Position numbers and translations under genes: made by a program. From positions 1 through 60,587 of the forward strand of contig JAOPZS010000125.1 of the NCBI GenBank assembly GCA_025963965.1: DNA of 60,587 nucleotides, in the 5' to 3' direction. Position 1 is the stretch's first letter. Each line of letters starts with the position of its first letter. Shown piece after piece: positions 6,841 to 48,700 of this stretch. This stretch comes from Solirubrobacterales bacterium (GTDB lineage: Bacteria > Actinomycetota > Thermoleophilia > Solirubrobacterales > Solirubrobacteraceae). The notes under the pieces were generated by a model, which saw only the letters and a program-made list of their open reading frames with translations, was not told the origin of the DNA and ran no database searches.

Positions 6841-8983
6841 CGTGTTTTGCCTTTCCCTTCGGCTTGAACCGCGCACGTGCGCTCCGCTCGCATTTCCTCC
6901 TACGATTGCCGGGGTGGAGCTTTCGGCACTTCGCCAGCGCCCGCCCGAGAGGACTCGATGCCGCCGGCTTCTTGCCGGTCGCGTTCGCCGGTGGGAGCGG
7001 CGTGAGGTTGTCGCCCGGCGTAGCAACGATGCTGGCGGGCGTGCCGAACCGCGGTGACGCGCTGGGGGTTCCCGAGCAACCGGTGGGGAGCGCACAGGGC
7101 CCCGGTTCGTCCAGCGCCAACGAGCCGCCGCCGATACGGGCGTCGTAGATGTCGAATTCGGTGTTCGTGTCACTGCGGGTGAGTTGCTCGGCTGACCTGA
7201 AGAACACGTTCCTGCCCGCGCCGTCGATTCCGTAGAGGTTGCCCACGCCCAGCGGCATCGCTTTGTGAGGCCCGGTAAGAGCGGTGTCGTACTCCTCTAT
7301 CTCCCCTTCCGATTCGAAGACGACGTATCGCCCATCGTCCGACAGCGCGCGTTCGGTGGTGTGGCTGGTCGGCTGCCCGTTTGTGAAAGCCTGGCGCGGC
7401 AGTTCTCCCCCGCCTTCGGGCGAGATCTTCTTGAGCTCTTCGGTCGCGGCGTCGTACAGGTCCACGCCGCCGCGACTGTCGAACGCCAACATCGCTCCGT
7501 TTGGCGTGGCCTGGGCCGGGCGGCTGTCCAGTTCCCTCCAGATTTCTTCATCTTCGGGCCCCAGCGCTGCGACGAACCTCAGCTTGCCGGCCGGGTTCGC
7601 GGCGTCGCGCTCGTACATGTAGAGGTTGTCGCCCGCCGCTTCCGGCGTTTGGCCTTCGGCGTTGGCCCCCGTGAGCACGGCGCCTGCGACGAAGTAGACA
7701 TGCGTCCCGTCCTCTGACACCCGCACGACACCGCGCACTTCGGGCGCTTGCGCTCCGGTCGCGAGAGGCGTCACCCGTTCGGCACGTTTCCCCGAGAGGT
7801 TGTACTCGTAGAGGTTGTTGCCCACGTGGCCCGGAAGCAGTTCCTGCGTCGTCGTGAAGAACACCTGTCGCCCGTTTTCGGATGCGCCTTGAAACTCGGC
7901 GGGAGCAAGCGCGGTCGACGGGGTCGACGTCGCTGTCTGGCACAGGGCGCATGCGTTCGCATCGGGCTCCGAGATGGGCAGCGTCTCGCCATCGGCCAGG
8001 CGTGCGTACAGTTCGTTTGCTTCCGGTCCCTTCGGGCTCCCTGCCGGGGCGCAGGGCACGCTGTTGAGCGTTTCATGCAGAGCCGTGAAGTAGACAGTCC
8101 CACCGTCCCGTGACACCGCGTTGTACATGTCCTGTCCCGGCCCGCCGAGTACGGTGCCGCAAACCGAGATCTGCTTGCCGTCTTCGCCCACCCCGACAAG
8201 TCCCGGCCGCGTCTGGTTTCGCCCGCGGTACTCGTAGAGTGACTCTGTGAAGCCCAAGCCCTCGTCTCCCGGCCAGAGCAGCCGTTCACTGTTCGACCCT
8301 TCGTTTTCGACGCCCGGGCTGTACGTCAGCAGGACATGCGAGAGGTCACCGGAGGCGCCGCTGTAGGCGACGAAGACCGAGCTGAGGATTTCGACGCTCG
8401 GGCCGGCGGGTTCTCCGCCGCCGCGGGCCGCACCGACCGCTGGCCCGATGCGAGCGAACGAGCTGTCGGGTTCGCGTACATAGAGGTCACCTTCGGCGGC
8501 CGACTGATCCGGTCTGCGCAGCGCCCAGAGTCCGGCCGTGAGATCGGCGCTGGGTCCCTCGAACCGCAGGGCCGGATAAAGCGCCGGGCTCGGATCGAGC
8601 GGTGTTGTGGCCCAGCCCGCCGGCGTCCTGTGAAGCGCGTAGACGGCCCCCTCGAGGACGTTCCCCGGGTCACTTTCCGTGTTCGCGAAGGCACCCGGGC
8701 TGGCGACGACCAGCCGTTCCCCGTCATCTGCGACGCCGCCGAGCTGCTTGATGAAGTTGCCCTCTTTGAAGGGAGGCGAGACCATCTCGTAAGCACGGCA
8801 GTCGGGGATCGCGACTTCCTGCTGAAGACGGACGGCTTCGTTCGGGCATTCCGCGGCCATGGAGACGGACGCCTGCAGCGTCGCCCCTAACACCCATGCC
8901 GTGAAAAGCCCAAGCCCAAGCAGGGCGCATCGGCGGGCCGCGTGGCGCCGCCTCCTCTCCTCGGTGAACACGCGATGGACCAT
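6824..8983 (-). CDS. Exported beta-propeller-like (PD40/TolB-type) protein
   Basis: 719 residues from the ATG at 8983; a TTG at 9007 would add eight residues. After a signal sequence (CALLGLGLFTAWVLGATLQ) comes CPNEAVRLQQEVAIPDCRAYEMVSPP, a signature I associate with Solirubrobacterales surface proteins. Repeated blade-like motifs follow: VSRDGGTVYFTA, ASENGRQVFFTT, VSEDGTHVYFVAG, LSDDGRYVVFES and GAGRNVFFRSAEQL. These match the DG-x-x-V-x-F/Y pattern of PD40/WD40-like propeller blades. The C-terminus is a basic tail with paired cysteines (ALAKCRKLH...RRKCERSARARF). The gene overlaps the next large exported gene by 17 bp. A surface or periplasmic-side binding role is inferred; no catalytic site is visible. 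Confidence 0.82.
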   Translation of the reverse strand: MVHRVFTEERRRRHAARRCALLGLGLFTAWVLGATLQASVSMAAECPNEAVRLQQEVAIPDCRAYEMVSPPFKEGNFIKQLGGVADDGERLVVASPGAFANTESDPGNVLEGAVYALHRTPAGWATTPLDPSPALYPALRFEGPSADLTAGLWALRRPDQSAAEGDLYVREPDSSFARIGPAVGAARGGGEPAGPSVEILSSVFVAYSGASGDLSHVLLTYSPGVENEGSNSERLLWPGDEGLGFTESLYEYRGRNQTRPGLVGVGEDGKQISVCGTVLGGPGQDMYNAVSRDGGTVYFTALHETLNSVPCAPAGSPKGPEANELYARLADGETLPISEPDANACALCQTATSTPSTALAPAEFQGASENGRQVFFTTTQELLPGHVGNNLYEYNLSGKRAERVTPLATGAQAPEVRGVVRVSEDGTHVYFVAGAVLTGANAEGQTPEAAGDNLYMYERDAANPAGKLRFVAALGPEDEEIWRELDSRPAQATPNGAMLAFDSRGGVDLYDAATEELKKISPEGGGELPRQAFTNGQPTSHTTERALSDDGRYVVFESEGEIEEYDTALTGPHKAMPLGVGNLYGIDGAGRNVFFRSAEQLTRSDTNTEFDIYDARIGGGSLALDEPGPCALPTGCSGTPSASPRFGTPASIVATPGDNLTPLPPANATGKKPAASSPLGRALAKCRKLHPGNRRRKCERSARARFKPKGKAKHDAHHR

Positions 8984-38677: not shown

Positions 38678-39987
38678 GCGCCGCGGAGCTCGTCGCGCTC
38701 GTGGCCTGCGATCTCACCGCGATCGTCCGCGGTCGGGCGGTCTTCGTCTCCGAGCTTCAGGAGCACCTCGACGCGGGCATCGGCTGGGTGCCGGCCAACC
38801 TGGCGCTGACGCCGCTCGGCCCGCTCGCCGAGCCGAACCCGTTCGGGTCGACCGGCGACCTGCGCCTGATGCCCGACCCCGACACGCACCTGCGGGTCGG
38901 CGCCGAGCCGGCCGGCAGCGCGCTCGAGCTGGTGCTGTGCGACATCGTCGACACGGACGGGGCGCCCTGGGAGTGCTGCCCGCGCACGTTCCTGAAGCGA
39001 GCGCTGGCCGAGCTGTCAGAGCGCGCCGGGGCAACGGTCACGGCGAGCTTCGAGCATGAGTTCCAGCTGCTGCGCCCGGAACGCCCGCATCTGCCCTTCT
39101 CGCTGGCGGCGCTGCGCTCGGCCGAGCCGTTCGCGACGACGCTGATGAGCGCGCTGGTCGAGGCGGGCGTCGAGCCGGAACTCTTCTTCGCCGAGTTCGC
39201 GAGCCACCAGTTCGAGATCCCGGTCGCCCCGGCCGGCGGCCTGGAGGCGGCCGACAGGGCGGTGGTGCTGCGGGAGGTGGTCCGCGAGATCGCGCGTCGC
39301 GCCGGTCTGCGGGCTTCGTTCGTGCCATTGCTGGATCCGGCCGAGGCGGGCAACGGCGTGCACATCCACATCAGCTTGACCGACGCCGACGGCCGAGCAT
39401 TGCTCCACGACCCGGAGCAGCCCGCGGCGCTCAGCAGGCTCGGAGGCAGCTTCGCGGCCGGCGTGCTCGCCCACGCCGGCGCGCTGACGGCGCTGTGCGC
39501 GCCGAGCCCGGTATCGGCCGAGCGCCTGAGCCCGCACCACTGGAGCGCGGGAGCGCTCTGCCTGGGCGATCGCAACCGCGAAGCGCTGCTGCGGATACCG
39601 CCGCTGCTCGGCACCGCCCGGAGCGAGCACTCCAGACAGATGCGTCTCGAGTTCCGCGGCGCCGACGCCTGCGCGAATCCCTACCTGGCGCTCGGCGCGA
39701 TCCTCTGCGCGGGGCTGGAGGGAATCGAGGGCGGCCTGCCGTCGCCGCCGGTGCTCGACCGGGACCCGGCGACGCTTGCCCCGGAGGAGGCCGAGCGCTT
39801 CGGGGTTGGAGCCCTGCCGGGATCACTCGAGGAGGCGCTGGCGGCGCTCGAGGCGGACGAGCCCGCATGCCGGTGGCTCGGCCCGCAGCTGCACGAGGCG
39901 TACTCGAGCCTGAAGCGGGCGGAGCTGGCGGCGACGGCAGGACTGCGGCTTCAGGAGAGCTGCGCGCGCTATGCCGAGGTCTACTGA
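38674..39987 (+). CDS. Glutamine synthetase-like ligase
   Basis: 437 residues, GTG start in a 4-bp overlap. GS fold signatures: ASFEHEFQLL (metal-binding Glu127/Glu129), FASHQFEIPVAPAGGLEAAD corresponding to the GS GQxE region, AGNGVHIHISLTD (GS G-x-G-x-H-x-H), LSPHHWSAGALCLGDRNREALLRIP, and RLEFRGADACANPYLALGAIL with the Arg that binds glutamate phosphate. It is shorter and more divergent than GlnA. It belongs with GlnA3/PuuA-type enzymes that join glutamate to amines rather than ammonia (family knowledge; substrate inferred). It is between a papain-like protein and an M20 amidohydrolase; the latter overlaps its end by 17 bp. Confidence 0.85.
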   Translation: MSAAELVALVACDLTAIVRGRAVFVSELQEHLDAGIGWVPANLALTPLGPLAEPNPFGSTGDLRLMPDPDTHLRVGAEPAGSALELVLCDIVDTDGAPWECCPRTFLKRALAELSERAGATVTASFEHEFQLLRPERPHLPFSLAALRSAEPFATTLMSALVEAGVEPELFFAEFASHQFEIPVAPAGGLEAADRAVVLREVVREIARRAGLRASFVPLLDPAEAGNGVHIHISLTDADGRALLHDPEQPAALSRLGGSFAAGVLAHAGALTALCAPSPVSAERLSPHHWSAGALCLGDRNREALLRIPPLLGTARSEHSRQMRLEFRGADACANPYLALGAILCAGLEGIEGGLPSPPVLDRDPATLAPEEAERFGVGALPGSLEEALAALEADEPACRWLGPQLHEAYSSLKRAELAATAGLRLQESCARYAEVY

Positions 39988-41182
39988 GGAGACGCTCGCG
40001 GCGCTGCTCGCGGCGCTGGACGGAACGCTCGAGGATGCAGTTGCATTGCGGCGGCGACTGCACGAAGCGCCAGAGCTCGCGCACGAGGAGAGCGCCACCT
40101 CCGCGGCGATCGCCGCCGCGCTGCCGGTCCCCGCCGAACCCGTCGCGGGGACCGGCCTGCTCGCGCTCGTCGGACCGGCCGACGGCTCGGCGCCCGTCGC
40201 GGTGCGCGCGGAGCTGGACGGGCTGCCGGTGCGCGAGGAGACGGGGGCGCCGTTCAGCGCCCGTGGCGCGACGATGCACGCGTGCGGGCACGATGTGCAC
40301 ATGGCAGCGCTCGTCGCGCTGCTCGCGGCGGCTGCCGCGATCGCGGAGGACCTGCCGGCGCCCCTGCTGGCGATCTTCCAACCGAGCGAGGAGGCCTACC
40401 CGTCGGGCGCCCGCCTGATCGCCGAGCAGGCACTGGGGCGCCTCGCGCCGCGGGCGGTGGTCGCGGCGCACGTGCATCCTGAACTGCCGTGGGGATCGGT
40501 CGCGATCGACGCGGGCGCGGTCAACGCCTCGTGTGACGCGATCGAGATCGAGATCACCGGCGAGGCGACCCACGGCGCCTACCCGCACCGGGGCCGCGAT
40601 CCGGTGCTGGCGCTGAGCGAGGCGGTGGTTGCGCTGCACGCGGCGGTGGGCCGGCGCATCGACCCGCTGTGGCCGGCGACGCTGACGATCGGCACGCTCG
40701 AGGCGGGAAGCGCCGAGAACGTGATCGGAGCGGCTGCGCGCGCCCGCGGGGCGCTGCGCGCCCACCGCGAGCAGGACCGCGCGCTGCTGCGCGAGCTCAG
40801 CCGGGAGGTCGTCGCCGGCGTCGCCGCCGCGAACGGCTGCCGCGGCGAGGTGCGTCTGACGGCTGGAGAGCCGGCGCTGCACAACGACGAGGCGATCGTC
40901 GCACGAGCGCGCGCGCTGCTCGCCGGCGCGGGGCTGCGGCTCGCGCCGCCGTGGCGCTCGGCCGGATCGGATGACTTCTCGTTCTTCGGCGAGCAGGCGC
41001 CGCTGGCGATGGGGTTCGTCGGCCTCGACGGCTCACCGGGCTTCGTGTCGCGCCCCCTTCACCATCCGGAGCTGCTGCCCCCCGACGAGGCGGTCGGGGC
41101 GGTGGCAAGGGCCCAGGCGGTCCTGTACCTCGCCGCGGCGCAGTCGAAGGGCCCCGAGGTCGATGGGGATGCAGCCTCGTGA
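39971..41182 (+). CDS. M20-family amidohydrolase (hippurate hydrolase-like)
   Basis: 403 residues, overlapping the GS-like gene by 17 bp. A metal-dependent hydrolase of N-acyl amino acids. Ligand motifs of M20D enzymes are visible: MHACGHDVHMAALVALL (Cys and His), FQPSEEAYPSGARLI (Glu pair), AAHVHPELPWGSV (His) and PLHHPELLPPDEAVGAVARA near the C-terminus (His). The dimerisation/lid domain starts at ATHGAYPHRGRDPVLALSEAVVALHAAVGRRIDPLWPATLTIG. It is probably cytoplasmic. With the GS-like ligase it may form a make-and-remove pair for an amide (inference). It shares a GTGA overlap with the TetR gene. Confidence 0.9.
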   Translation: MPRSTEETLAALLAALDGTLEDAVALRRRLHEAPELAHEESATSAAIAAALPVPAEPVAGTGLLALVGPADGSAPVAVRAELDGLPVREETGAPFSARGATMHACGHDVHMAALVALLAAAAAIAEDLPAPLLAIFQPSEEAYPSGARLIAEQALGRLAPRAVVAAHVHPELPWGSVAIDAGAVNASCDAIEIEITGEATHGAYPHRGRDPVLALSEAVVALHAAVGRRIDPLWPATLTIGTLEAGSAENVIGAAARARGALRAHREQDRALLRELSREVVAGVAAANGCRGEVRLTAGEPALHNDEAIVARARALLAGAGLRLAPPWRSAGSDDFSFFGEQAPLAMGFVGLDGSPGFVSRPLHHPELLPPDEAVGAVARAQAVLYLAAAQSKGPEVDGDAAS

Positions 41183-41886
41183 CACGGCGCGAACCCGTCC
41201 AGAAACGCAGCCGCGAGCGGGTCGCGGCGATCCTCAAGGCCGCCCAGGAGCAGCTCGCCGCCGGCGGCGTGGAGGCGCTCACGACACGCTCGCTGGCGAG
41301 CTACTCGGGCATCCCGGTCGCGACGATCTACCGCTACTTCGAGGACCGCGACGCGATCATCGCCGCCTACCTCGAGCGCGAGCTCGAATCGATCGACCAC
41401 GCCGTCGAGGAGGCGCTGCGCGGGATCGAGCGGGTCACGTTCAGGTCGATGATGCACGCGGTCGCGCACGCCCACCTTCGCCATCACCAGGCTCACCCGG
41501 AGGGCGTCGGTGTTTGGTTCGGCACGCGCCTGAACGCCGCCGTCCACGACAGCGTCCGCCAACTCGACGCGCGGATGGCATCCGCCCTGCACGGCGCGAC
41601 GCGGGGCGCCGGCTTCATCGAGCGGGGCCCGCACTTCGGCGCCGGGCTGATCGTGCGCCTGTGGGACCGCACCTTCGAGCACATCTTCCGGATCGAGCGC
41701 AGCCCGGCCGAGCAGCAGGCGATCGTCGACGAGGTCGTGGACATGATCGCGACCTACATGGAGCGCTACGCGACTCCGGCGGGGCTCGACGGCATCTCAA
41801 GCGACGACTTCCTGAAGGTGCTGCGACGCACCGGCAGCCCGCCCGGCTCGCGCGCACAACGCCCGCCGCCAGATCCGCCCCGGTAA
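41179..41886 (+). CDS. TetR-family transcriptional regulator
   Basis: 235 residues from a GTG overlapping the M20 stop by 4 bp. N-terminal helix-turn-helix: RVAAILKAAQEQLAAGGVEALTTRSLASYSGIPVATIYRYFEDRDAIIAAYLERELE, a textbook TetR domain (about 10-65). The C-terminal ligand domain is generic, with a disordered tail (SPPGSRAQRPPPDPPR). As the last gene of the operon it is likely to control this operon (inference from coupling). Confidence 0.92.
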   Translation: MTRREPVQKRSRERVAAILKAAQEQLAAGGVEALTTRSLASYSGIPVATIYRYFEDRDAIIAAYLERELESIDHAVEEALRGIERVTFRSMMHAVAHAHLRHHQAHPEGVGVWFGTRLNAAVHDSVRQLDARMASALHGATRGAGFIERGPHFGAGLIVRLWDRTFEHIFRIERSPAEQQAIVDEVVDMIATYMERYATPAGLDGISSDDFLKVLRRTGSPPGSRAQRPPPDPPR

Positions 41887-41940
41887 ATGCCCCGGCACCG
41901 ACCGGTGATCTTTCTGCGCCTCCGCCGCGGGCGCCGGTCG

Positions 41941-42336
41941 CTACTCCGTGAGCCCGACCGCCTCGAGCGCGTCTGCCCGGTCGCTGTAGGTCTGAAACCG
42001 CGTGATCAGTCCGTCGCGCAGATCGGCAACCCAGGCTCCTCTGGCATCGATCCCTGCGCCGCTGCCCCTTCCGCGACCCCGAATGTGGCCGAACGCGATG
42101 ACCCGGCTGCCGAGGTCACGGATCTCCTCGACCTCCCATCTGAGCGCCTCCCAGCTCTCGTCGACTGCCGTGCAGTACTGCGAGGCTGCATCCGGTCCAC
42201 AGAATGTCGTTCCGTCGATCACGGCGCGCACCGGCACGATCTCAGCGTTCTCGTCGAGCAGCGCATCGAAGCCCGCGCGATCCCGGCTGTTAAACGCCTG
42301 AAGCGCCGTTCGCATGAGCTCTACGTTCGAGTCCAT
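41941..42336 (-). CDS. SnoaL/NTF2-like protein
   Basis: 131 residues from the ATG at 42336 (MDSNVELMRTALQAFNSRDRAGFDALLDENAEIVPV). The SnoaL-like NTF2 fold is clear: N-terminal helices with FNSRDRAGFDALL, then strands with DPDA-type turn CGPDAASQYCTAVDESW, RVIAFGHIRGRGRGSG and LITRFQTYSDRADALEAVGL at the end. The fold serves as isomerase, cyclase or binding protein; no specific function can be given. It is convergent with the TetR gene and divergent from the truncated HhH-GPD gene, 30 bp away, close to the left edge of the mosaic locus. Confidence 0.85.
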   Translation of the reverse strand: MDSNVELMRTALQAFNSRDRAGFDALLDENAEIVPVRAVIDGTTFCGPDAASQYCTAVDESWEALRWEVEEIRDLGSRVIAFGHIRGRGRGSGAGIDARGAWVADLRDGLITRFQTYSDRADALEAVGLTE

Positions 42337-42366
42337 AGCCCAAGTACTCCGAGGTAGGATCGCACC

Positions 42367-42522
42367 ATGCCGAAGCGCCTCTGCTTCACCAGCTGCGATG
42401 AGGCCAACGAGCTGATCGGGAAGGATCCGATGGCGTTGCTGATCGGCTTCGCGCTGGACCAGCATCGCTGGGTTCCTGTCCGGAGCCGAGCCGCTCCTCG
42501 CGTCGTCCAAGGACTGCGTTGA
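42367..42522 (+). pseudogene. 5' part of a disrupted HhH-GPD-type gene
   Basis: Codons 1-32 (MPKRLCFTSCDEANELIGKD...LDQ) align without gap to the intact paralogue at 43565. From the next codon (42463) the sequence is unrelated and stops at TGA 42522. The 3' part of what appears to be the same gene resumes in phase at 46068. The upstream flank (TAGGATCG.ACCATG) also resembles that of the intact copy (TAGGATCCGCCCGTG). Joining 42464 to 46070 gives 182 codons of continuous protein, the same length as the paralogue. I read this as the left half of a gene split by an inserted segment of about 3.6 kb. Confidence 0.8.
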
Positions 42523-42526
42523 GCCT

Positions 42527-43033
42527 ATGGCGCGCGATCGAGCGCTGCGCCGCGTCGATCCGTATGAGCCTCGAGGTCGGCTGTATCTCGCGGCAGCCCG
42601 CCTGTCAGCGACGAGAGCAGGCGCTTGGTTCTCCGTCAAGATCGCATGGAAGCTCGACCCGTGGCTGCTGCGGATCACGAATGGGCGACTCAGCACCGCG
42701 GGACCGCTCGCCGCGGCGCTGCTCGAGTCGCGCGGCGCACGGACAGGGCAACCGCGTAGGAACGCCACGCTGTACTTCCACGACGGTGACCGGGTTACGA
42801 TCGTCGCGTCCAAGCGCGGATGGGCAACCCACCCCGCCTGGTACTACAACCTCCGCAAGCATCCTGAGGTCGTCTACGGCGGGCTTCCGTTCCGCGCCGA
42901 GATCGTCGAGGACGAGGCCGAACGTGAACGACTGTGGGGGCTCGCCGACCGCGTGTTCCCGCCCTACGCCGACTACCGCGATCAGGCTGAGAGGGCCGGG
43001 CGGGTGATCCCGATCTTTCAGCTGATCGAGTAG
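42527..43033 (+). CDS. Deazaflavin (F420)-dependent nitroreductase-family protein
   Basis: 168 residues. Pattern of the DDN/F420H2-dependent quinone reductase family: LRITNGRLSTAGPLAAALLESRGARTGQPRRNATLYFHDGD, then VTIVASKRGWATHPAWYYNLRKHPEVVY, and VFPPYADYRDQAERAGRVIPIFQL. The R-G-A-R-T-G-x-x-R and HPxWYxNLxxxP signatures define this split-barrel family. It would use F420H2 to reduce quinones or related compounds; the natural substrate is unknown. The ATG lies 5 bp past the stop of the truncated HhH-GPD ORF, so it may now be read from that gene's promoter. It lies inside the putative island. Confidence 0.9.
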   Translation: MARDRALRRVDPYEPRGRLYLAAARLSATRAGAWFSVKIAWKLDPWLLRITNGRLSTAGPLAAALLESRGARTGQPRRNATLYFHDGDRVTIVASKRGWATHPAWYYNLRKHPEVVYGGLPFRAEIVEDEAERERLWGLADRVFPPYADYRDQAERAGRVIPIFQLIE

Positions 43034-43078
43034 AACCCCAGGAGATCGTTTGGCGCAGGAGCGGGGCTGAGCCGTCAG

Positions 43079-43456
43079 TCAGGCGTATCGATGATGCAGG
43101 ATCAGCGGGTTCCCATCCGGGTCGCTGAAAATCGCCTGGTGGCAGACCCCTGAGTCGAAGGACATGTGGAAGATCACGCCACGGGCTTCGAGCGCGGCCT
43201 GCGAGGCGGCCACGTCGGCGACTTGGAGAGCGATCGGCGCGCTGTTCGGGCGCGCCTCGCCCTGGCCGAACCCGCTCGGGTCCATCACGGCGAGCGTCAG
43301 GTTGCCGGCCTGAAACTCGGTCGCGGGACGCTCACCCCAGCGCTTGCCCCGCTCCAGCCCGAGCGTGTCAGCGTAGAAGCGGACGGCACGGTCGTGGTCG
43401 CTGGTGGGGATGCAGACGAAGTCGACGCCGGTGACGGTCGTCTCGGTGGTGCTCAA
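43079..43456 (-). CDS. VOC-fold protein (TTG start)
   Basis: 125 residues starting at a TTG at 43456, chosen because AAAGGAG lies 5-6 nt upstream and the reading LSTTETTVTGVDFVCIP matches the family N-terminus; no ATG is available nearby. VOC modules: GVDFVCIPTSDHDRAVRFYADTLGLERG, GNLTLAVMD, IALQVADVAASQAALEARGVIF and FSDPDGNPLILHHRYA. It is a close paralogue of the VOC protein at 37446, sharing length, order and C-terminus. The reaction is unknown. It is convergent with the F420-type gene and divergent from the intact HhH-GPD gene, inside the putative island. Confidence 0.85.
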   Translation of the reverse strand: MSTTETTVTGVDFVCIPTSDHDRAVRFYADTLGLERGKRWGERPATEFQAGNLTLAVMDPSGFGQGEARPNSAPIALQVADVAASQAALEARGVIFHMSFDSGVCHQAIFSDPDGNPLILHHRYA

Positions 43457-43564
43457 CTCAGCTCCTTTGCTCGTGGATGACACCGTCGCCGGGACGGCTC
43501 GAGCCTCCACGATCGCAGGTGCTGCGAGTCGCGGCAGCACTCGGCCTGCAGATAGGATCCGCCC

Positions 43565-44113
43565 GTGCCCGATCGCCTCTACTTCACGAACTCCGAAGAG
43601 GCGAACGAGCTGATCGCGAAGGACCCGATGGCGCTGTTGATCGGGTTCGCACTGGACCAGCAGGTCTCGGTGCCCAAGGCCTTCAGCGGTCCGCTGGCGA
43701 TCAGGGAGCGCCTCGGCACGCTCGACCCGGCGCAGCTCGCAGCCGCCGACCTCGATTCCGTGTTCCGGGAGAAACCCGCAATCCACCGGTTCCCCGGAAA
43801 AATGGCCGAACGGGTCCAGGAGCTCTCGGCACACGTGCGCGACGAATACGACGGTGACGCGGCGCAGGTCTGGACCCGAGCGAAGAACGGAGCCGAGTTG
43901 CGCGAGAGCATCGAAGCGCTTCCCGGGTTCGGCGAGATGAAGGTGAAGTCTCTCGGCGCGGTGCTCGCCAAGCGCTTCAAGGTGGCGAAGGCGAAGAGCC
44001 TCGTCCCGCCGCACCCGACGCTTGGCGACGTGGACTCCCCGCAGGCGCTGCTCGACTACCAGGCCGCGAAGCGGGCGCACAAGGCGGAGTGGAAGAAGAT
44101 GAAGGCCGCCTAG
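43565..44113 (+). CDS. HhH-GPD-type base-excision-repair-like protein (intact copy)
   Basis: 182 residues from a GTG at 43565, family of uncharacterised HhH-GPD proteins (TIGR03252-like by recollection). The first helices carry DPMALLIGFALDQQVSVPKAFSGPLAIRERLG. The helix-hairpin-helix is at ALPGFGEMKVKSLGAVLAKRF (about 119-139; LPGFG is the hairpin). PHPTLGDVDSPQALLDYQ follows. The catalytic Asp expected in active GPD glycosylases is a candidate at DVDS but not certain. It is the only intact copy among several here: a split copy flanks the island and another 3' fragment lies at 45657. A small hairpin (44121-44139) follows. It is likely cytoplasmic and DNA-binding. Confidence 0.88.
   Translation: MPDRLYFTNSEEANELIAKDPMALLIGFALDQQVSVPKAFSGPLAIRERLGTLDPAQLAAADLDSVFREKPAIHRFPGKMAERVQELSAHVRDEYDGDAAQVWTRAKNGAELRESIEALPGFGEMKVKSLGAVLAKRFKVAKAKSLVPPHPTLGDVDSPQALLDYQAAKRAHKAEWKKMKAA
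44078..44105 (+). repeat. 28-bp direct repeat, left copy (inside HhH-GPD 3' end)
   Basis: Identical over 28 bp to 45657-45684, same orientation. Encodes HKAEWKKMK near the end of the intact HhH-GPD gene. Confidence 0.85.
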
Positions 44114-44120
44114 ATCACGC

Positions 44121-44139
44121 CTGCGAGGGCAACTCGCAG
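44121..44139. terminator. Small hairpin after the intact HhH-GPD gene
   Basis: ctgcga / tcgcag, 6-bp stem, 7-nt loop, 7 bp after the stop. Weak: no U-run. Confidence 0.35.
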
Positions 44140-44144
44140 CGGGG

Positions 44145-45620
44145 TTGCGGTTTCTGGACCACGTGGGGAGGCGTTCGCTAAAAGCAGCCGGATCTCTAAG
44201 CGTTGCATACGTGCTGTGCCTCACGGCTGTCGTCGTGACGGCTGTTTCGGTCATCCCGCCGGCGGCCGACAGCGAGACCCCGTCGACAGCTGCAGCGTCA
44301 GTGTCCTCCCAGGCTCTACCGGCAATCCCGGAGGCGCTGCGGGCAGGGCGGGAACAGATTCCCGAAGCTGTGCACGTCGATCCTGCGGGCGGGGGATGGT
44401 TCGCGTTCTCCGAACGGGGCACGAACCGGCTGCTACGGGTCTTCGAAGCAGGCGGCGCCGAGGACGTCGCGCTGCCGCCCCGCTTTCGGACGGCCTACAA
44501 CCTCGAACTGATCCCGCTACGGCGGGGGTGGGACCTTCTGGTCGGGCGCCTGATGCCCGCAGAGGCTCGGCGGGAACGGGACCGATGCGGCGAAGGCTGG
44601 CCCGAACCGGCCGGCTTCAGATGCGGAGCGTTGATCGTCTCGCAGCTGACCCCGACAGGCAGGTGGACGCCGGTCCAGGCGCTTCCCGACCTGGGGACCG
44701 ATGAAGCGCAAGTCGCCAGGCCAGTCGTGACCGGGTCCAAGGTAGAGCTCGTCTGGTGGCAGGAGGAGGACGGGCCGTTCAGGATCTCGCTCGCACGGCG
44801 CGGGGGTCGTTTCTCGAGACCCCGCAAGGTCCAGCGCCTGCCCGAGAGCCACCACGACAAGACAGAAGAAGCAACCGTGGTGAGCTTCGACGGACGCCTG
44901 TGGGTGCGCGGCAAATACGTGGTCGTGCCGGGCCGAGAGCATTTCGACGTGCTCCGTGCGATCCGGCCAAACGGCCGCCTCGAGCCGCCCATCGTGATAC
45001 GCCACCCCGGCCGCCTCAACATCATCTGGGGCGCCGACATCGGCGAATGGTTCGAGTCCTCGAAGCACACAGAAACGTTGCTCGTCGAACTGCCCTCCTC
45101 GGAAGGCGAACTGCGAACCTTCGCGGTGCGCCGGCGAGCCGCGAACAGTGGCAGCTACACGCGCCCACGCCTCATCGCCAAGCAGATCGCGTTCCCGCTG
45201 CTCGGACTCGAAAGCTACGCCCAGGCGCCTGACCACCGGCTTCTCGTGCTGCTCGAACGCGAGGTCCACCACCAGACGGTGCTGAGCGGTGTCGAAGTGT
45301 CGCCGGACGGCGCGGTCGGTGCGGTCCGCTACATCGAGACGATCCCGCCGAGGTCGGAACTGGAAAGTCCGAGCTACGGCTGGGCGGGGGCGATCGCCAG
45401 TGGGGGAGGCACGCTCGTGCCCACAACGTCCACCATCCCGGGGGACCCGATCCGGCTGCACCCAGCCGGGGAGGCGTGCCCCAGGTTCGGGCCGCCGCAG
45501 GCGCTGGCACCAGGCACCCTGCTCGGCATCTTCGCCGGTCGCGCCGGCGTGTTCCACGTCCTCTGGGGCAACACGCTCGGACAGCTCCAGCTCACGACTG
45601 CTCGAGTGGGCTGCGGCTAG
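44145..45620 (+). CDS. Membrane-anchored or exported protein of unknown function
   Basis: 491 residues from a TTG at 44145; the GTG at 44163 is an alternative, and neither has a clear ribosome site. The N-terminus has a signal or anchor segment (AYVLCLTAVVVTAVSVIPPA, about 21-40). The rest is soluble-looking with repeated strands that could be propeller-like: GGWFAFSERGTNRLLRVFEAGG, GSKVELVWWQEEDGPFRISLARR, TVVSFDGRLWVRGKYVVVPG and AGVFHVLWGNTLGQLQL. I do not recognise the family. Glu is frequently GAA, as in other exported proteins here. The gene is bracketed by a 28-bp identical direct repeat (44078-44105 and 45657-45684) derived from the HhH-GPD 3' end. Confidence 0.7.
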   Translation: MRFLDHVGRRSLKAAGSLSVAYVLCLTAVVVTAVSVIPPAADSETPSTAAASVSSQALPAIPEALRAGREQIPEAVHVDPAGGGWFAFSERGTNRLLRVFEAGGAEDVALPPRFRTAYNLELIPLRRGWDLLVGRLMPAEARRERDRCGEGWPEPAGFRCGALIVSQLTPTGRWTPVQALPDLGTDEAQVARPVVTGSKVELVWWQEEDGPFRISLARRGGRFSRPRKVQRLPESHHDKTEEATVVSFDGRLWVRGKYVVVPGREHFDVLRAIRPNGRLEPPIVIRHPGRLNIIWGADIGEWFESSKHTETLLVELPSSEGELRTFAVRRRAANSGSYTRPRLIAKQIAFPLLGLESYAQAPDHRLLVLLEREVHHQTVLSGVEVSPDGAVGAVRYIETIPPRSELESPSYGWAGAIASGGGTLVPTTSTIPGDPIRLHPAGEACPRFGPPQALAPGTLLGIFAGRAGVFHVLWGNTLGQLQLTTARVGCG

Positions 45621-45656
45621 ACACGCCACATGTCGCTCCCCGCACCGCTGCTGGAC

Positions 45657-45689
45657 CACAAGGCGGAGTGGAAGAAGATGAAGGTCTAG
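45657..45689 (+). pseudogene. 3' fragment of another HhH-GPD copy
   Basis: Reads HKAEWKKMKV-stop. 45657-45684 is identical to 44078-44105 in the intact gene, after which the two diverge (V-stop here, AA-stop there). Nothing upstream of 45657 matches the gene. It marks the far side of the exported-protein gene, so that gene sits between two copies of the same short sequence. Confidence 0.7.
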
Positions 45690-45889
45690 TTAGCGCAGAG
45701 GGAGCCCCGTCCGTGGAGCTCCCTCGTCGCCACCCGCGTCTACTTCTGAACGGTGACGTTCGACCGCCATTCGCCAGGACCGCCACCCACGTCCAAGGCG
45801 ATGTGCCAATGGGGCACGCGTAAAGACGCGAAGCCTGCCGTCTCCCTCCTCGACCTCAATGATCGCCCCGAGCCTCGGAGGCATGGGAA
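45690..45889. other. Degenerate stretch, no gene supported
   Basis: About 200 bp between the HhH-GPD tail fragment and the recombinase relic. Open frames on both strands lack recognisable motifs or ribosome sites. Confidence 0.4.
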
Positions 45890-46000
45890 TCAGGCCTTGG
45901 CCCAGCGGCGGATGTCCGCCTCCTGGATCGCCGGGCTCATGTACGACTCGCCCTCGCGACCCATTACCCTCGACACCCTGATGTACGCGTCCATCTTCAT
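45890..46000 (-). pseudogene. N-terminal relic of a serine recombinase/integrase
   Basis: 36 residues, MKMDAYIRVSRVMGREG then SYMSPAIQEADIRRWAKA, then a TGA at 45890-45892. YIRVS is the catalytic-serine motif of resolvase/serine-integrase N-terminal domains; S-P-x-x-Q-x-x-x-I-x-x-W-A is also typical of large phage-type serine integrases. AAGGAG lies 6 nt before the ATG, so this is the true 5' end. No continuation is seen in any frame downstream, so at least several hundred codons are gone. It points into the island and lies 69 bp from the right junction, the position expected of an integrase gene next to its att site. Confidence 0.75.
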
Positions 46001-46067
46001 TGCTGGCTCCTTGGTTGGCTCCCAGAGTCCTTGTACCGACTTTGGGGGTGCATTTGAGACGCAGCAA

Positions 46068-46520
46068 CAGGTCACGGTGCAGACGGCGTTTTCGGGTCCC
46101 CTTGCGATCTCAGAACGCGTCGGCACGCTCGACGCGGCCAAGCTCGCGGCGAGCGACCTCGATGCGGTGTTTCGGGAGAAACCCGCCGTGCACCGCTTCC
46201 CCGGAAAAATGGCCGAACGCGTCCATCAGCTCGTGGTGCACGTGCGCGACGAGTACGCCGGCGACGCGGGCAGGGTGTGGGGCGATGCGAAGAACGGCGA
46301 GCAGCTGCGCGCCAACCTCAGCGGCCTGCCGGGTTTCGGCGAGATGAAGGTCAAGTCTCTCGGCGCGGTGCTGGCCAAGCGCTACAAGCTGGCCAAGGCC
46401 AAAAGCCTCGTGCCGCCGCATCCGACCCTCGGCGACGTCGACTCCCCGCAGGCGCTGCTCGACTATCAGGCCGCAAAGCGACAGCACAAGGCCGAGTGGT
46501 CGCGGATGAAGGCACGCTAG
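46068..46520 (+). pseudogene. 3' part of the disrupted HhH-GPD-type gene
   Basis: 150 codons starting QVTVQTAFSGPLAISERVG, aligning without gap to residues 33-182 of the intact paralogue, including LPGFGEMKVKSLGAVLAKRY and PHPTLGDVDSPQALLDYQ. The open frame extends upstream to about 45753, but that part has no similarity to the family, and no ribosome site is seen. The missing first 32 codons are at 42367-42462. If translated, the fragment would keep the HhH motif but lack the first helices. The frame is intact, which suggests recent splitting. Confidence 0.8.
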
Positions 46521-46634
46521 ACATCCCATCGGGAGGCGCGCCCAGCGGGCGCCGGGGACGCCTGCGCGAGGTTGCCGAGCGGATAGCGTGTGCCGCCGAT
46601 GACCCCTCAGCCGCGACGATGAAAGCCTAGAGCG

Positions 46635-47792
46635 CTGTCCTCCAGGCGCCCAGGCCTGGCGGCCTCGTTTGGCATCTTCGTCACCGCGCTGCTCGCGTTC
46701 CTCGCGATCGGGGCGGCGCTGCCGACGCTGCCGACGTATGTGCGCGGCCCCCTCGGCTCAGGCGATCTCGCGGTCGGGATCGTCGTCGGTGCGTTCGCGG
46801 TGACGTCGGTCTTCTGCCGCCCGTTCGCCGGGCGGCAGTCCGATCGGCGGGGCCGGCGGGTGGTGCTGATCGCCGGCGCGCTGGCGATGACGGCCGGGGG
46901 CCTGCTGTACCTCGTGTCGGACAACGTCGCGACGCTGATCGCCGCCAGGTTGGTGGTCGGCGCAGGCGAGGGAACGGTCTACACAGCGGGCGCGACCTGG
47001 GCCGTTGACCTCGCACCGGAGGACCGCCGGGGACTCGCCCTCGGGCTGTTCGGGCTGGCCGTCTGGGGCGGCCTGTCGCTGGGGCCGCTGGCTGGCGAGC
47101 TGCTGCGCTCCCAGGCCGGCTATGACGCGGTGTGGATCCTGACGGCCGCGCTTCCGGCGGCGGGCGCGCTGATCGCGCTGCGCCTGCCGGAGCCGCGGGT
47201 TCCGGCGCTGCCGCCCGCGGGCGAGCGCGCCGCGTTCCTGCCCCGGGCTGCGCACCGCCCGGGCGTGGCGCTGGCGCTGGCGAACATCGGCTACGCAGCG
47301 CTGGCCGGCTTCGTGGTGCTGGCGCTGAAGGCACGCGGCATCGAGGGCGGGGCCACCGTCTTCACCGCCTTCGCCGTGGCGGTGTTCGCCAGCCGGCTGG
47401 TGCTCAGCCGCGTCCCCGACCGCGCCGGCGCGCGGCGAACCGCGACGGCCGCCGGGCTGCTCGAGGCGCTGGGATTGACCGTGATCGCGGCGGCCGCCTC
47501 GTTGACGGTCGCCCTGATCGGTGCGCTGATCGTCGGGGTGGGCTTCTCGATGCTGTTCCCGTCTCTCGCGCTGATGGTCGTCGGCGACGTGGACGACGAT
47601 CGCCGGGGCTCGGCGATGGGAGCGTTCACGGCGTTCTTCGACATCGGCGTCGGGCTCGGCGGTCCGATCGCCGGGGCCACGGCCGCGCTTGCCGGCTACC
47701 CGGCCGTCTTCTATCTGGCGGCGGTCGCAGCGCTCGGAACCGCCGTGCTGGCCGCATCGCCGGAACGCGCCGCGGCGCCTGTGCACGACTAG
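46635..47792 (+). CDS. MFS transporter (non-standard or damaged start)
   Basis: About 385 residues with the 12-helix MFS pattern: loop 2-3 motif GRQSDRRGRRVVLIAGAL, then ARLVVGAGEGTVYTAGATWAVDLAPEDRRGLALGLFGL, and a second half with GVGFSMLFPSLALMVVGDVDDDRRGSAMGAFTAFFDIGVGLGGPIAG. It resembles drug/sugar efflux MFS proteins. The first ordinary start codon is the GTG at 46740, yet the first helix (LAASFGIFVTALLAFLAIGAALP) is encoded before it. An in-frame TGA lies at 46620, and between them no ATG, GTG or TTG exists. A CTG at 46635 would give LSSRRPGLAASF, a normal MFS start. Either CTG is used or the 5' end is damaged. It lies just right of the island. Confidence 0.75.
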   Translation: MSSRRPGLAASFGIFVTALLAFLAIGAALPTLPTYVRGPLGSGDLAVGIVVGAFAVTSVFCRPFAGRQSDRRGRRVVLIAGALAMTAGGLLYLVSDNVATLIAARLVVGAGEGTVYTAGATWAVDLAPEDRRGLALGLFGLAVWGGLSLGPLAGELLRSQAGYDAVWILTAALPAAGALIALRLPEPRVPALPPAGERAAFLPRAAHRPGVALALANIGYAALAGFVVLALKARGIEGGATVFTAFAVAVFASRLVLSRVPDRAGARRTATAAGLLEALGLTVIAAAASLTVALIGALIVGVGFSMLFPSLALMVVGDVDDDRRGSAMGAFTAFFDIGVGLGGPIAGATAALAGYPAVFYLAAVAALGTAVLAASPERAAAPVHD

Positions 47793-48700
47793 GCGACCGG
47801 GGGCGGCGAGCCGTGCACCGTCGCCGCGAGCTCCGCGTCCCATTCGCAGACGACGCACGCGTGCCGGAAGACGGTGCGGGCGAACTCGACAGCTGTGCGG
47901 TGCGGGTCTGGGCTCGCCAGCACGTCATCCCAGTCGAGCACGAACTCGCCGAGGGTCCCCTCCCAGCGTCCCGGCGCCGGCGAGAGCTCGGCAAAGCCCT
48001 CGGCGGCGGGATGCGCGTAGGCGTAGAAGGCTGCGCGCTCGTAGCGCGTGTCGCCGGGCCACCAACCGACGGCGACCTCCTGCGCATCCATCGCGTTGCG
48101 CATGATGAAGTCTCGCGACGGCGGCTCGGCTCGACGGCCCGAGAACAGGTTGACGGCCAGGTCGAATGAGCCCCACCACGCGTTCACGGGGGTCGAGCGC
48201 CCGCGGAAAGGGGCTCGGAAATCGGCCAGCACGAGCGCCGCCCGGCCGGCTGCGTCGAAGTAGCGGCCGACCTGGGCAGGGTCGTAGACGGTGTGCTGCT
48301 CGTCCTCGTCGAGTGGCACGGTCCAGGCGACCTCCTGCGGCTTCGGGTCGATCTGGAACGTTCCGGCCATCTCGCGCGCCGCGTCGAGCACGCTTCTCGT
48401 GATCGCACCCACCGAGGCGTTCAGCAGGCTGAAGCGCGCGCTGCGCCCGTCGCTGTGCTCGAGCACGGCCTCGTGCACGTGTAGGTCCAGCAGCGCGCTG
48501 AACGCACCCGAGCCATCGGGCGCCGGCAGTGGCAGCGTCTCCCAGCCACGCGTCGTCAGGCGCAAGGCGGCGTGCTGCAGCTGTGGCTCAGGCGGGGCCA
48601 GGGCGACGGCCAGCTTGCCGAGCAGCTGCGTGTGCGCGTGCAGCGTGTCGCACGTCTCACGCCACTCCCCGTAGGACAGGCTCGGCCAGTGTGCCGGCAT
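47789..48700 (-). CDS. DUF5996 family protein
   Basis: 303 residues. Family pattern: WPSLSYGEWRETCDTLHAHTQLLGKLAVALAPPEPQLQHAALRLTTRGWETLPL at the N-terminus, then FRAPFRGRSTPVNAWWGSFDLAVNLFSGRRAEPP and SRDFIMRNAMDAQEVAVGWWPGD, and AFYAYAHPAAEGFAE near the end. DUF5996 proteins are cytoplasmic and of unknown function. Its stop overlaps the MFS stop by 4 bp on the opposite strand. No operon partner is evident. Confidence 0.88.
   Translation of the reverse strand: MPAHWPSLSYGEWRETCDTLHAHTQLLGKLAVALAPPEPQLQHAALRLTTRGWETLPLPAPDGSGAFSALLDLHVHEAVLEHSDGRSARFSLLNASVGAITRSVLDAAREMAGTFQIDPKPQEVAWTVPLDEDEQHTVYDPAQVGRYFDAAGRAALVLADFRAPFRGRSTPVNAWWGSFDLAVNLFSGRRAEPPSRDFIMRNAMDAQEVAVGWWPGDTRYERAAFYAYAHPAAEGFAELSPAPGRWEGTLGEFVLDWDDVLASPDPHRTAVEFARTVFRHACVVCEWDAELAATVHGSPPPVA

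Follow-up and report, generated by a model that had tools for sequence, protein, structure and literature searches.

The DNA analysed here is a stretch of 60,587 nucleotides from a Solirubrobacterales bacterium (contig JAOPZS010000125.1 of GenBank assembly GCA_025963965.1; hereafter the window), in which a gene of the helix-hairpin-helix (HhH)-GPD type family TIGR03252 lies in two pieces on either side of an insert. The insert carries an intact TIGR03252 copy, here called the spare, and the start of a large serine recombinase gene. The features on which the argument turns are the following.

42367..42464, + strand: 5′ fragment of the broken TIGR03252 gene (codons 1–32 plus CA), with its own TAGGATCGC-type stretch upstream
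42440..42490, no strand: putative attL; the last gene-derived bases, GACCAGCA, end at 42464
43565..44113, + strand: intact TIGR03252 copy (the spare), 146.6 bits against a cut-off of 136.5
45779..46003, − strand: decayed remnant of a large serine recombinase gene, covering roughly the N-terminal 50 residues, with one stop and one insertion
46040..46095, no strand: putative attR; the gene restarts at CAGGTC (46068)
46068..46520, + strand: 3′ fragment of the broken TIGR03252 gene (150 codons), in the ancestral place before a major facilitator superfamily (MFS) transporter gene

A TIGR03252 gene split at CA and its unbroken counterparts

Joining of 42367–42464 to 46070–46520 gave a protein of 182 residues, in frame and free of stops and frameshifts, which is identical to the likewise 182-residue spare at 143 of 182 positions. 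The gene match on the left ends ...GACCAGCA at 42464 and restarts on the right at CAGGTC (46068), so that the two halves overlap by exactly 2 bp, CA, as would fit a two-base crossover sequence common to the putative attL and attR. The break lies right after GAY-CAG-CA, the codons of a conserved DQQ motif (codons 32/33). The TIGR03252 profile matched all three pieces, with the 5′ piece at 21 bits (E 0.0002) and the 3′ piece at 101.1 bits (E 5.7e-29), both below the cut-off reached by the spare, as expected for pieces. A search of the genome with the spare as query (E up to 0.001) returned three places, namely the two fragments and the spare itself. These results bear out the preliminary description of this DNA, which had read the two fragments as one 182-codon HhH-GPD gene. 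TIGR03252 is a hypothetical equivalog family; the spare is a predicted HhH-GPD-type base excision repair protein and scored 18.5 bits against Pfam PF00730, whose cut-off is 26.2.

The 5′ piece is identical to the spare at 82 of 98 nt and the 3′ piece at 359 of 451 nt (stop codon included), amounting to a DNA difference of about 20% between the intact and broken copies. An origin of the fragments from different paralogues, which the preliminary description had named as a finding that would speak against it, left no sign in this comparison, the 98-nt piece being too short to be placed in a separate tree. The differences between the two copies fall 27, 26 and 55 times on the first, second and third codon positions. 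This dominance of third positions is as expected of genes under constraint through most of their history and, together with the lack of any stop or frameshift in the broken copy, makes the split look recent compared with the divergence of the two copies.

The genes that flank the broken gene are conserved in the genus.

39971..41182, + strand: amidohydrolase-type gene, left flank
46740..47792, + strand: MFS transporter gene (PF07690), right flank; its true start is probably further upstream

The gene order in the genus is C39-like, glutamine-synthetase-like, amidohydrolase-type, in some cases an F420-type gene, HhH, MFS and then the gene found at 47789–48700 in the window; the first three labels rest on reading of the sequences only. 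An HhH homologue was present in 38 of 101 genomes (the window's own included) and, among 23 other genomes of the same genus, some of them incomplete, in 14, at a single place in each. In five of these 14 (G002, G003, G004, G020 and G022), a continuous HhH gene stands between the amidohydrolase-type and MFS genes. The empty site that the preliminary description had proposed to look for in relatives thus exists, with both flanks present. Two more (G014 and G023) have the amidohydrolase-type gene next to a continuous HhH gene and no MFS match within the stretch seen, and in the other seven no amidohydrolase-type match was seen beside HhH. In G012, the MFS gene was found and no HhH match. Both flanks of the split gene are syntenic, and the right fragment holds the ancestral position ahead of the MFS gene. 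A by-eye comparison showed a TAGGATCGC-type stretch, similar to that ahead of the 5′ fragment, ahead of the HhH gene of G020.

The recombinase relic and the contents of the insert

The recombinase relic starts at 46003, some 70 bp from the right junction on the insert side, and breaks off after about 50 residues. When its 36 aa were used as query, matches were found in 16 of 146 genomes of the family, its own included, the best outside itself lying in the same genome (62% identity, E 1.2e-10). Three of the matched relatives were scanned, and all three contained Resolvase, Recombinase and Zn-ribbon domains. Taken alone, the relic matched no Pfam family (E up to 0.01). A profile built from 19 relatives matched it at E 1.5e-15, a value that is not independent, since the relatives were found with the relic. 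The relic of a serine recombinase that had been noticed near the right end is therefore confirmed as the start of a large serine recombinase gene. Elsewhere in the window's own genome (L197, on contig C106) there is a large serine recombinase gene that looks intact and whose product shares 62% identity with the N-terminus of the relic.

Besides the spare and the relic, the insert holds four features.

42527..43033, + strand: deazaflavin/F420-type oxidoreductase gene (TIGR00026, PF04075)
43079..43459, − strand: VOC (glyoxalase-like) gene (PF00903, E 2.1e-12); start not fixed
44145..45620, + strand: gene for a 491-aa protein, a putative exported protein according to the preliminary description; without a match in Pfam or NCBIfam (E up to 0.01)
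45650..45689, + strand: 3′ tail of a TIGR03252 copy, 28 bp of it identical to the tail of the spare

In G002 and G003, HhH comes directly after the F420-type gene, part of which also lies about 1 kb upstream of HhH in G018. F420–HhH is therefore an old gene pair in the genus and not random cargo. In a protein tree, the joined broken copy, the spare and the G020 gene form one clade (99/96). DNA trees paired the broken copy with the spare (98/95, or 98/91 when the 3′ part was used by itself) and joined G020 to this pair (100/99), whereas within that clade the protein tree paired the broken copy with G020 (95/73). Because the pair is old and the spare falls into a clade with the broken gene and G020, the F420/spare part looks as though it came from the chromosome of a close relative. 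The genes listed for the insert in the preliminary description (intact paralogue, F420-type, VOC and 491-aa genes) are all present. Its view that one island simply brought them all, the substitute copy being plain cargo, is not supported in this form, given the old pair and the clade, and for the same reasons the idea of an insert consisting entirely of foreign cargo was dropped.

The closest relative seen of the VOC protein (81% aa identity) is encoded on contig C256 of G003, at another place in that genome, and the 491-aa protein matched, among the 146 family genomes, only its own genome and G018 (32–33%). Past the 491-aa gene, 28 bp of the 3′ end of the spare (44078–44105) are exactly repeated at 45657–45684. 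The resulting exact direct repeat flanks the 491-aa gene (44078–45684), as though another insertion, separate from the first, had taken place where the spare ends. A third intact copy was ruled out, as only the tail at 45650–45689 is left; this tail may be a duplicate of the tail of the spare or of that of another copy. A TIGR03252 tail in G016 is 93% identical to it over 30 bp.

The same breakpoint in other actinobacterial loci

In G789, a genome of the same phylum and another class, a TIGR03252 5′ piece ends CTCGACCAGCA and is identical at 95 of 101 nt to an intact copy 3.5 kb further on. In Mycobacterium sp. ACS4331 (L091, 5113–6579), a 5′ piece ends CTCGATCAGCA and is identical at 94 of 95 nt to an intact copy 0.9 kb on; the 60 bases upstream of this piece do not match (21/60). 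The same cut after GAY-CAG-CA is thus found in two unrelated actinobacterial loci. Between the piece and the intact copy of ACS4331 lies a weak recombinase-like stretch, and the corresponding interval of G789 (L225, 7475–11541 with both TIGR03252 parts) holds a ParD-like/zeta-toxin-like gene pair.

A second type of arrangement was seen on two IMG/VR contigs, IMGVR_UViG_2627853864_000002 (L232 and L233) and IMGVR_UViG_3300044809_000018 (L234), and in the genome G742. In these, the TIGR03252 gene begins with a 5′ part of its own, followed by a short linker, after which it restarts at QQ in frame. The rejoined genes, each with an in-frame repeat of the DQQ region, lie at 7995–8663 of L232, 7969–8268 of L234 and 7600–8277 of L231 (G742). 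A phage capsid gene is present on L233 and on L234, and L233 also encodes a PF07508 (Recombinase) protein that runs off the contig edge. The rejoined genes would be prophage junctions at which the gene is given back. Formation of the spare in this way, by rejoining of the host 3′ part at one end of the element, was rejected, as the 3′ part still stands before the MFS gene and the spare has its own 3′ end. On another IMG/VR contig (L235), which has a capsid gene, about 50 N-terminal TIGR03252 residues stand at the contig end without a linker. A search of phages with 166 bp of L232 gave no match. Another contig of G742 (L230, C46) holds a decayed TIGR03252 5′ piece at 1473–1402. The TIGR03252 gene on contig C344 of G225 has an internal deletion that starts right after residue 31, and that of G435 a deletion after residue 37.

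The searches behind these cases covered the class and the phylum. Within the class, at least 169 of 399 genomes had a TIGR03252 match. None of the 15 genomes re-examined for two, weak or partial matches had the arrangement of the window; what they showed instead were frames that are split, pieces at contig edges, genes with internal deletions, distant homologues and, as in G451, a second full copy. Among the 101 genomes searched first, G050 showed two abutting pieces and G024 a piece at a contig edge. The phylum search matched the family in 140 of 396 genomes and 0 of 14 control genomes. It returned 27 genomes with at least two places, of which 19 were re-examined and the other eight judged from their listed extra places; a 5′ piece ending near the break site was found in G789 and G742. 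Since this search overlooks some 5′ pieces, the window's own among them, its counts are lower bounds. Finally, 105 loci of at least 4 kb were scanned for extra pieces, including 78 of 79 homologue contig loci, G789, which was already known to have the piece, and two copies of the window's locus. Outside the window only G789 and ACS4331 had a 5′ piece ending at the break site, ACS4331 being the only one among the 78 homologue contig loci. A plasmid search returned five distant records, one of which was inspected and carried no annotation.

Origin of the split and of the spare copy

The CA overlap, the relic about 70 bp from the junction, the empty sites and the two further loci with the same breakpoint all argue for serine-recombinase insertion at a 2-bp core. 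We consider it likely that the large serine recombinase of a mobile element integrated that element into the TIGR03252 gene, with crossover at CA in the DQQ codons 32/33, so that attL would now follow the 5′ piece and attR stand ahead of the 3′ piece. The element would later have lost most of its DNA, with about 50 codons of the recombinase gene surviving, and this loss would have locked the insertion in. The intact second TIGR03252 gene between the junctions, with its own upstream region and its old F420-type partner, would have taken over the function. The recombinase that left the relic presumably made this insertion itself, and the spare is probably expressed and may have been kept since it replaces the broken gene. 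Of the earlier proposal that a recombinase-driven island integrated here and brought a substitute, the serine-recombinase insertion at a 2-bp core is supported and the simple delivery of all cargo is not. The F420–VOC–spare block may be cargo of the element or may have entered the element later from the chromosome of a relative.

Several observations weigh against this interpretation. The genomes searched yielded no intact element, no excised junction and no second case of the split; within the genus, each of the 14 further genomes that have the gene shows one place. On viral contigs, four of six TIGR03252 queries (those taken from Streptomyces, Gordonia, G789 and the window) found no relative and the other two did; searches of phages with window and mycobacterial protein queries gave no TIGR03252 relative, and the predicted 20-bp junction of the element ends had no match in viral contigs. 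No recombinase relic was seen in the G789 locus, and the recombinase-like stretch of ACS4331 is weak (E 0.027). The joined element ends do show, in favour of the insertion, 7 of 9 complementary positions around CA, a value reached by a fraction of 0.0043 of 20,000 random joins; this dyad, however, was picked out post hoc and weakens over a longer stretch (8/20, P 0.20), and the joined gene site has no dyad around CA (1/9). F420 beside the spare is a chromosomal gene order and not typical element cargo. As for the need for a spare, the patchy occurrence of the family in genus and phylum, together with G012, which has the MFS gene and no HhH match, implies that the gene is dispensable in some relatives, and this speaks against a strong need.

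One variant is, in our view, quite possible, if short of probable. The F420–VOC–spare block would not have been cargo; rather, the element would have split the gene first, and recombination of F420–HhH DNA from a close relative into the defunct element would then have brought the function back. This variant is compatible with the insertion step proposed above. It agrees with the F420–HhH order in G002 and G003, with the partial piece in G018 and with the common clade of spare, broken copy and G020 in the protein and DNA trees, and the block ends in the TIGR03252 tail at 45650–45689, just where everything of the recombinase but its start is missing. However, it requires two further junctions without long homology, and no relative in an intermediate state was seen among the genomes searched.

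A transposon or an illegitimate duplication could also have made the split, in which case the 2-bp CA would be microhomology by chance or a duplicated target. Duplications of 2 bp are made by some transposons, and the short imperfect inverted repeat at the two element ends (7/9) would fit such an origin. We regard it as unlikely, given a serine recombinase N-terminus about 70 bp from the element end and an exact breakpoint common to two other loci, which is unexpected from an element without site preference; moreover, the insert proteins scanned gave no transposase match, in a scan not aimed at transposases. Least probable, and very unlikely in our view, is an assembly artefact in which contigs of different strains were joined at similar HhH copies: the window is part of one metagenome assembly of 147 contigs and a completeness of 89.68, but the copies differ by about 20% in DNA, the breaks fit at single-base precision and come with a 2-bp overlap and a relic of a recombinase, and both flanks are syntenic.

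A wider proposal is put forward more tentatively, as one to which we give somewhat less than even weight. The DQQ codons may be a recurrent serine-recombinase attachment site across Actinomycetota, from Mycobacterium to Solirubrobacteraceae, at which elements repeatedly pair damage with replacement, either by rejoining a spare 5′ part in frame or by a whole second gene. A published site may belong here. The Ala/Pro-rich gene downstream of TIGR03252 in ACS4331, the end part of which also follows in L232, resembles what we take to be the neighbour of Rv1156, and on this ground we infer that the gene Msmeg_5156 is a TIGR03252 member. MSMEG_5156 is paired with Rv1156 under DNA repair (PMC3625197), and it contains the attB of the serine integrase of the mycobacterial phage Bxz2, with a 4-bp common core at 5 259 344–5 259 347 (PMC2884959); the gene has been called a putative DNA glycosylase (PMC9262239). 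Bxz2 resembles the event proposed for the window in its serine integrase, its target within a putative DNA glycosylase gene and its tiny common core. It differs in being a mycobacterial phage, and the available text of both reports mentions no spare copy (PMC2884959, PMC9262239). The preliminary description, which knew of no report of such a target for this family, is overtaken on this point by the Bxz2 case. A literature search found no paper joining HhH-GPD with a serine integrase and attB, or with an integrase and an integration site. The target type therefore has a published precedent, and the recurrence of the site and the ways in which the gene is given back are possibly the new part.

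Other systems share some of these traits. On the IMG/VR contigs described above, the gene is rejoined at QQ, in the company of capsid genes and, on the first, a PF07508 protein, but there it is one reading frame (running off the contig end in L234), whereas the window keeps both old halves and a whole inner second gene. Many islands restore the gene that they enter (PMC12884075). Tyrosine integrases at tRNA and tmRNA genes, where the target is rebuilt from island sequence, are described in PMC4383910. The likeness is that an element enters a gene and its function is given back; the difference from the islands described in PMC4383910 is that the window has a complete copy of a protein gene in its interior. 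The dusA islands insert within a protein gene, in its 5′ part (PMC4482086). The Wolbachia prophage WO (sr1WO), a large serine recombinase prophage, lies in a magnesium chelatase gene that is intact in a relative (PMC9203015). WO also splits a protein gene by a serine-recombinase element; it differs in that these are prophages and not a gutted relic, and no spare gene is mentioned in the part of that report available to us.

If the site is indeed recurrent throughout the phylum, it would offer natural integration sites for actinobacteria without genetic tools. The spare copies suggest that loss of this unstudied repair-like gene can be costly, although its patchy spread speaks against a strong need. 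This possible cost makes the function of TIGR03252 a testable question.

Two further genes lie between the amidohydrolase-type gene and the 5′ fragment, and neither had a match in the loci of relatives that were searched.

41179..41886, + strand: TetR-type regulator gene, labelled by reading the sequence only
41941..42333, − strand: SnoaL-like gene just upstream of the 5′ fragment (PF12680, E 7e-13)

What lies upstream of HhH varies within the genus: a Lys/Glu-rich gene on the opposite strand in G020 (L164, 4988–5587), a repeat-rich stretch in G018 (L173) and the F420-type gene in G002 and G003. The G+C content of the window at 41750–46750 is about 64–70% per 500 bp, compared with about 70–78% in the flanks; since this stretch takes in both halves of the broken gene and the SnoaL-like gene, the low G+C content is not a mark of the insert alone.

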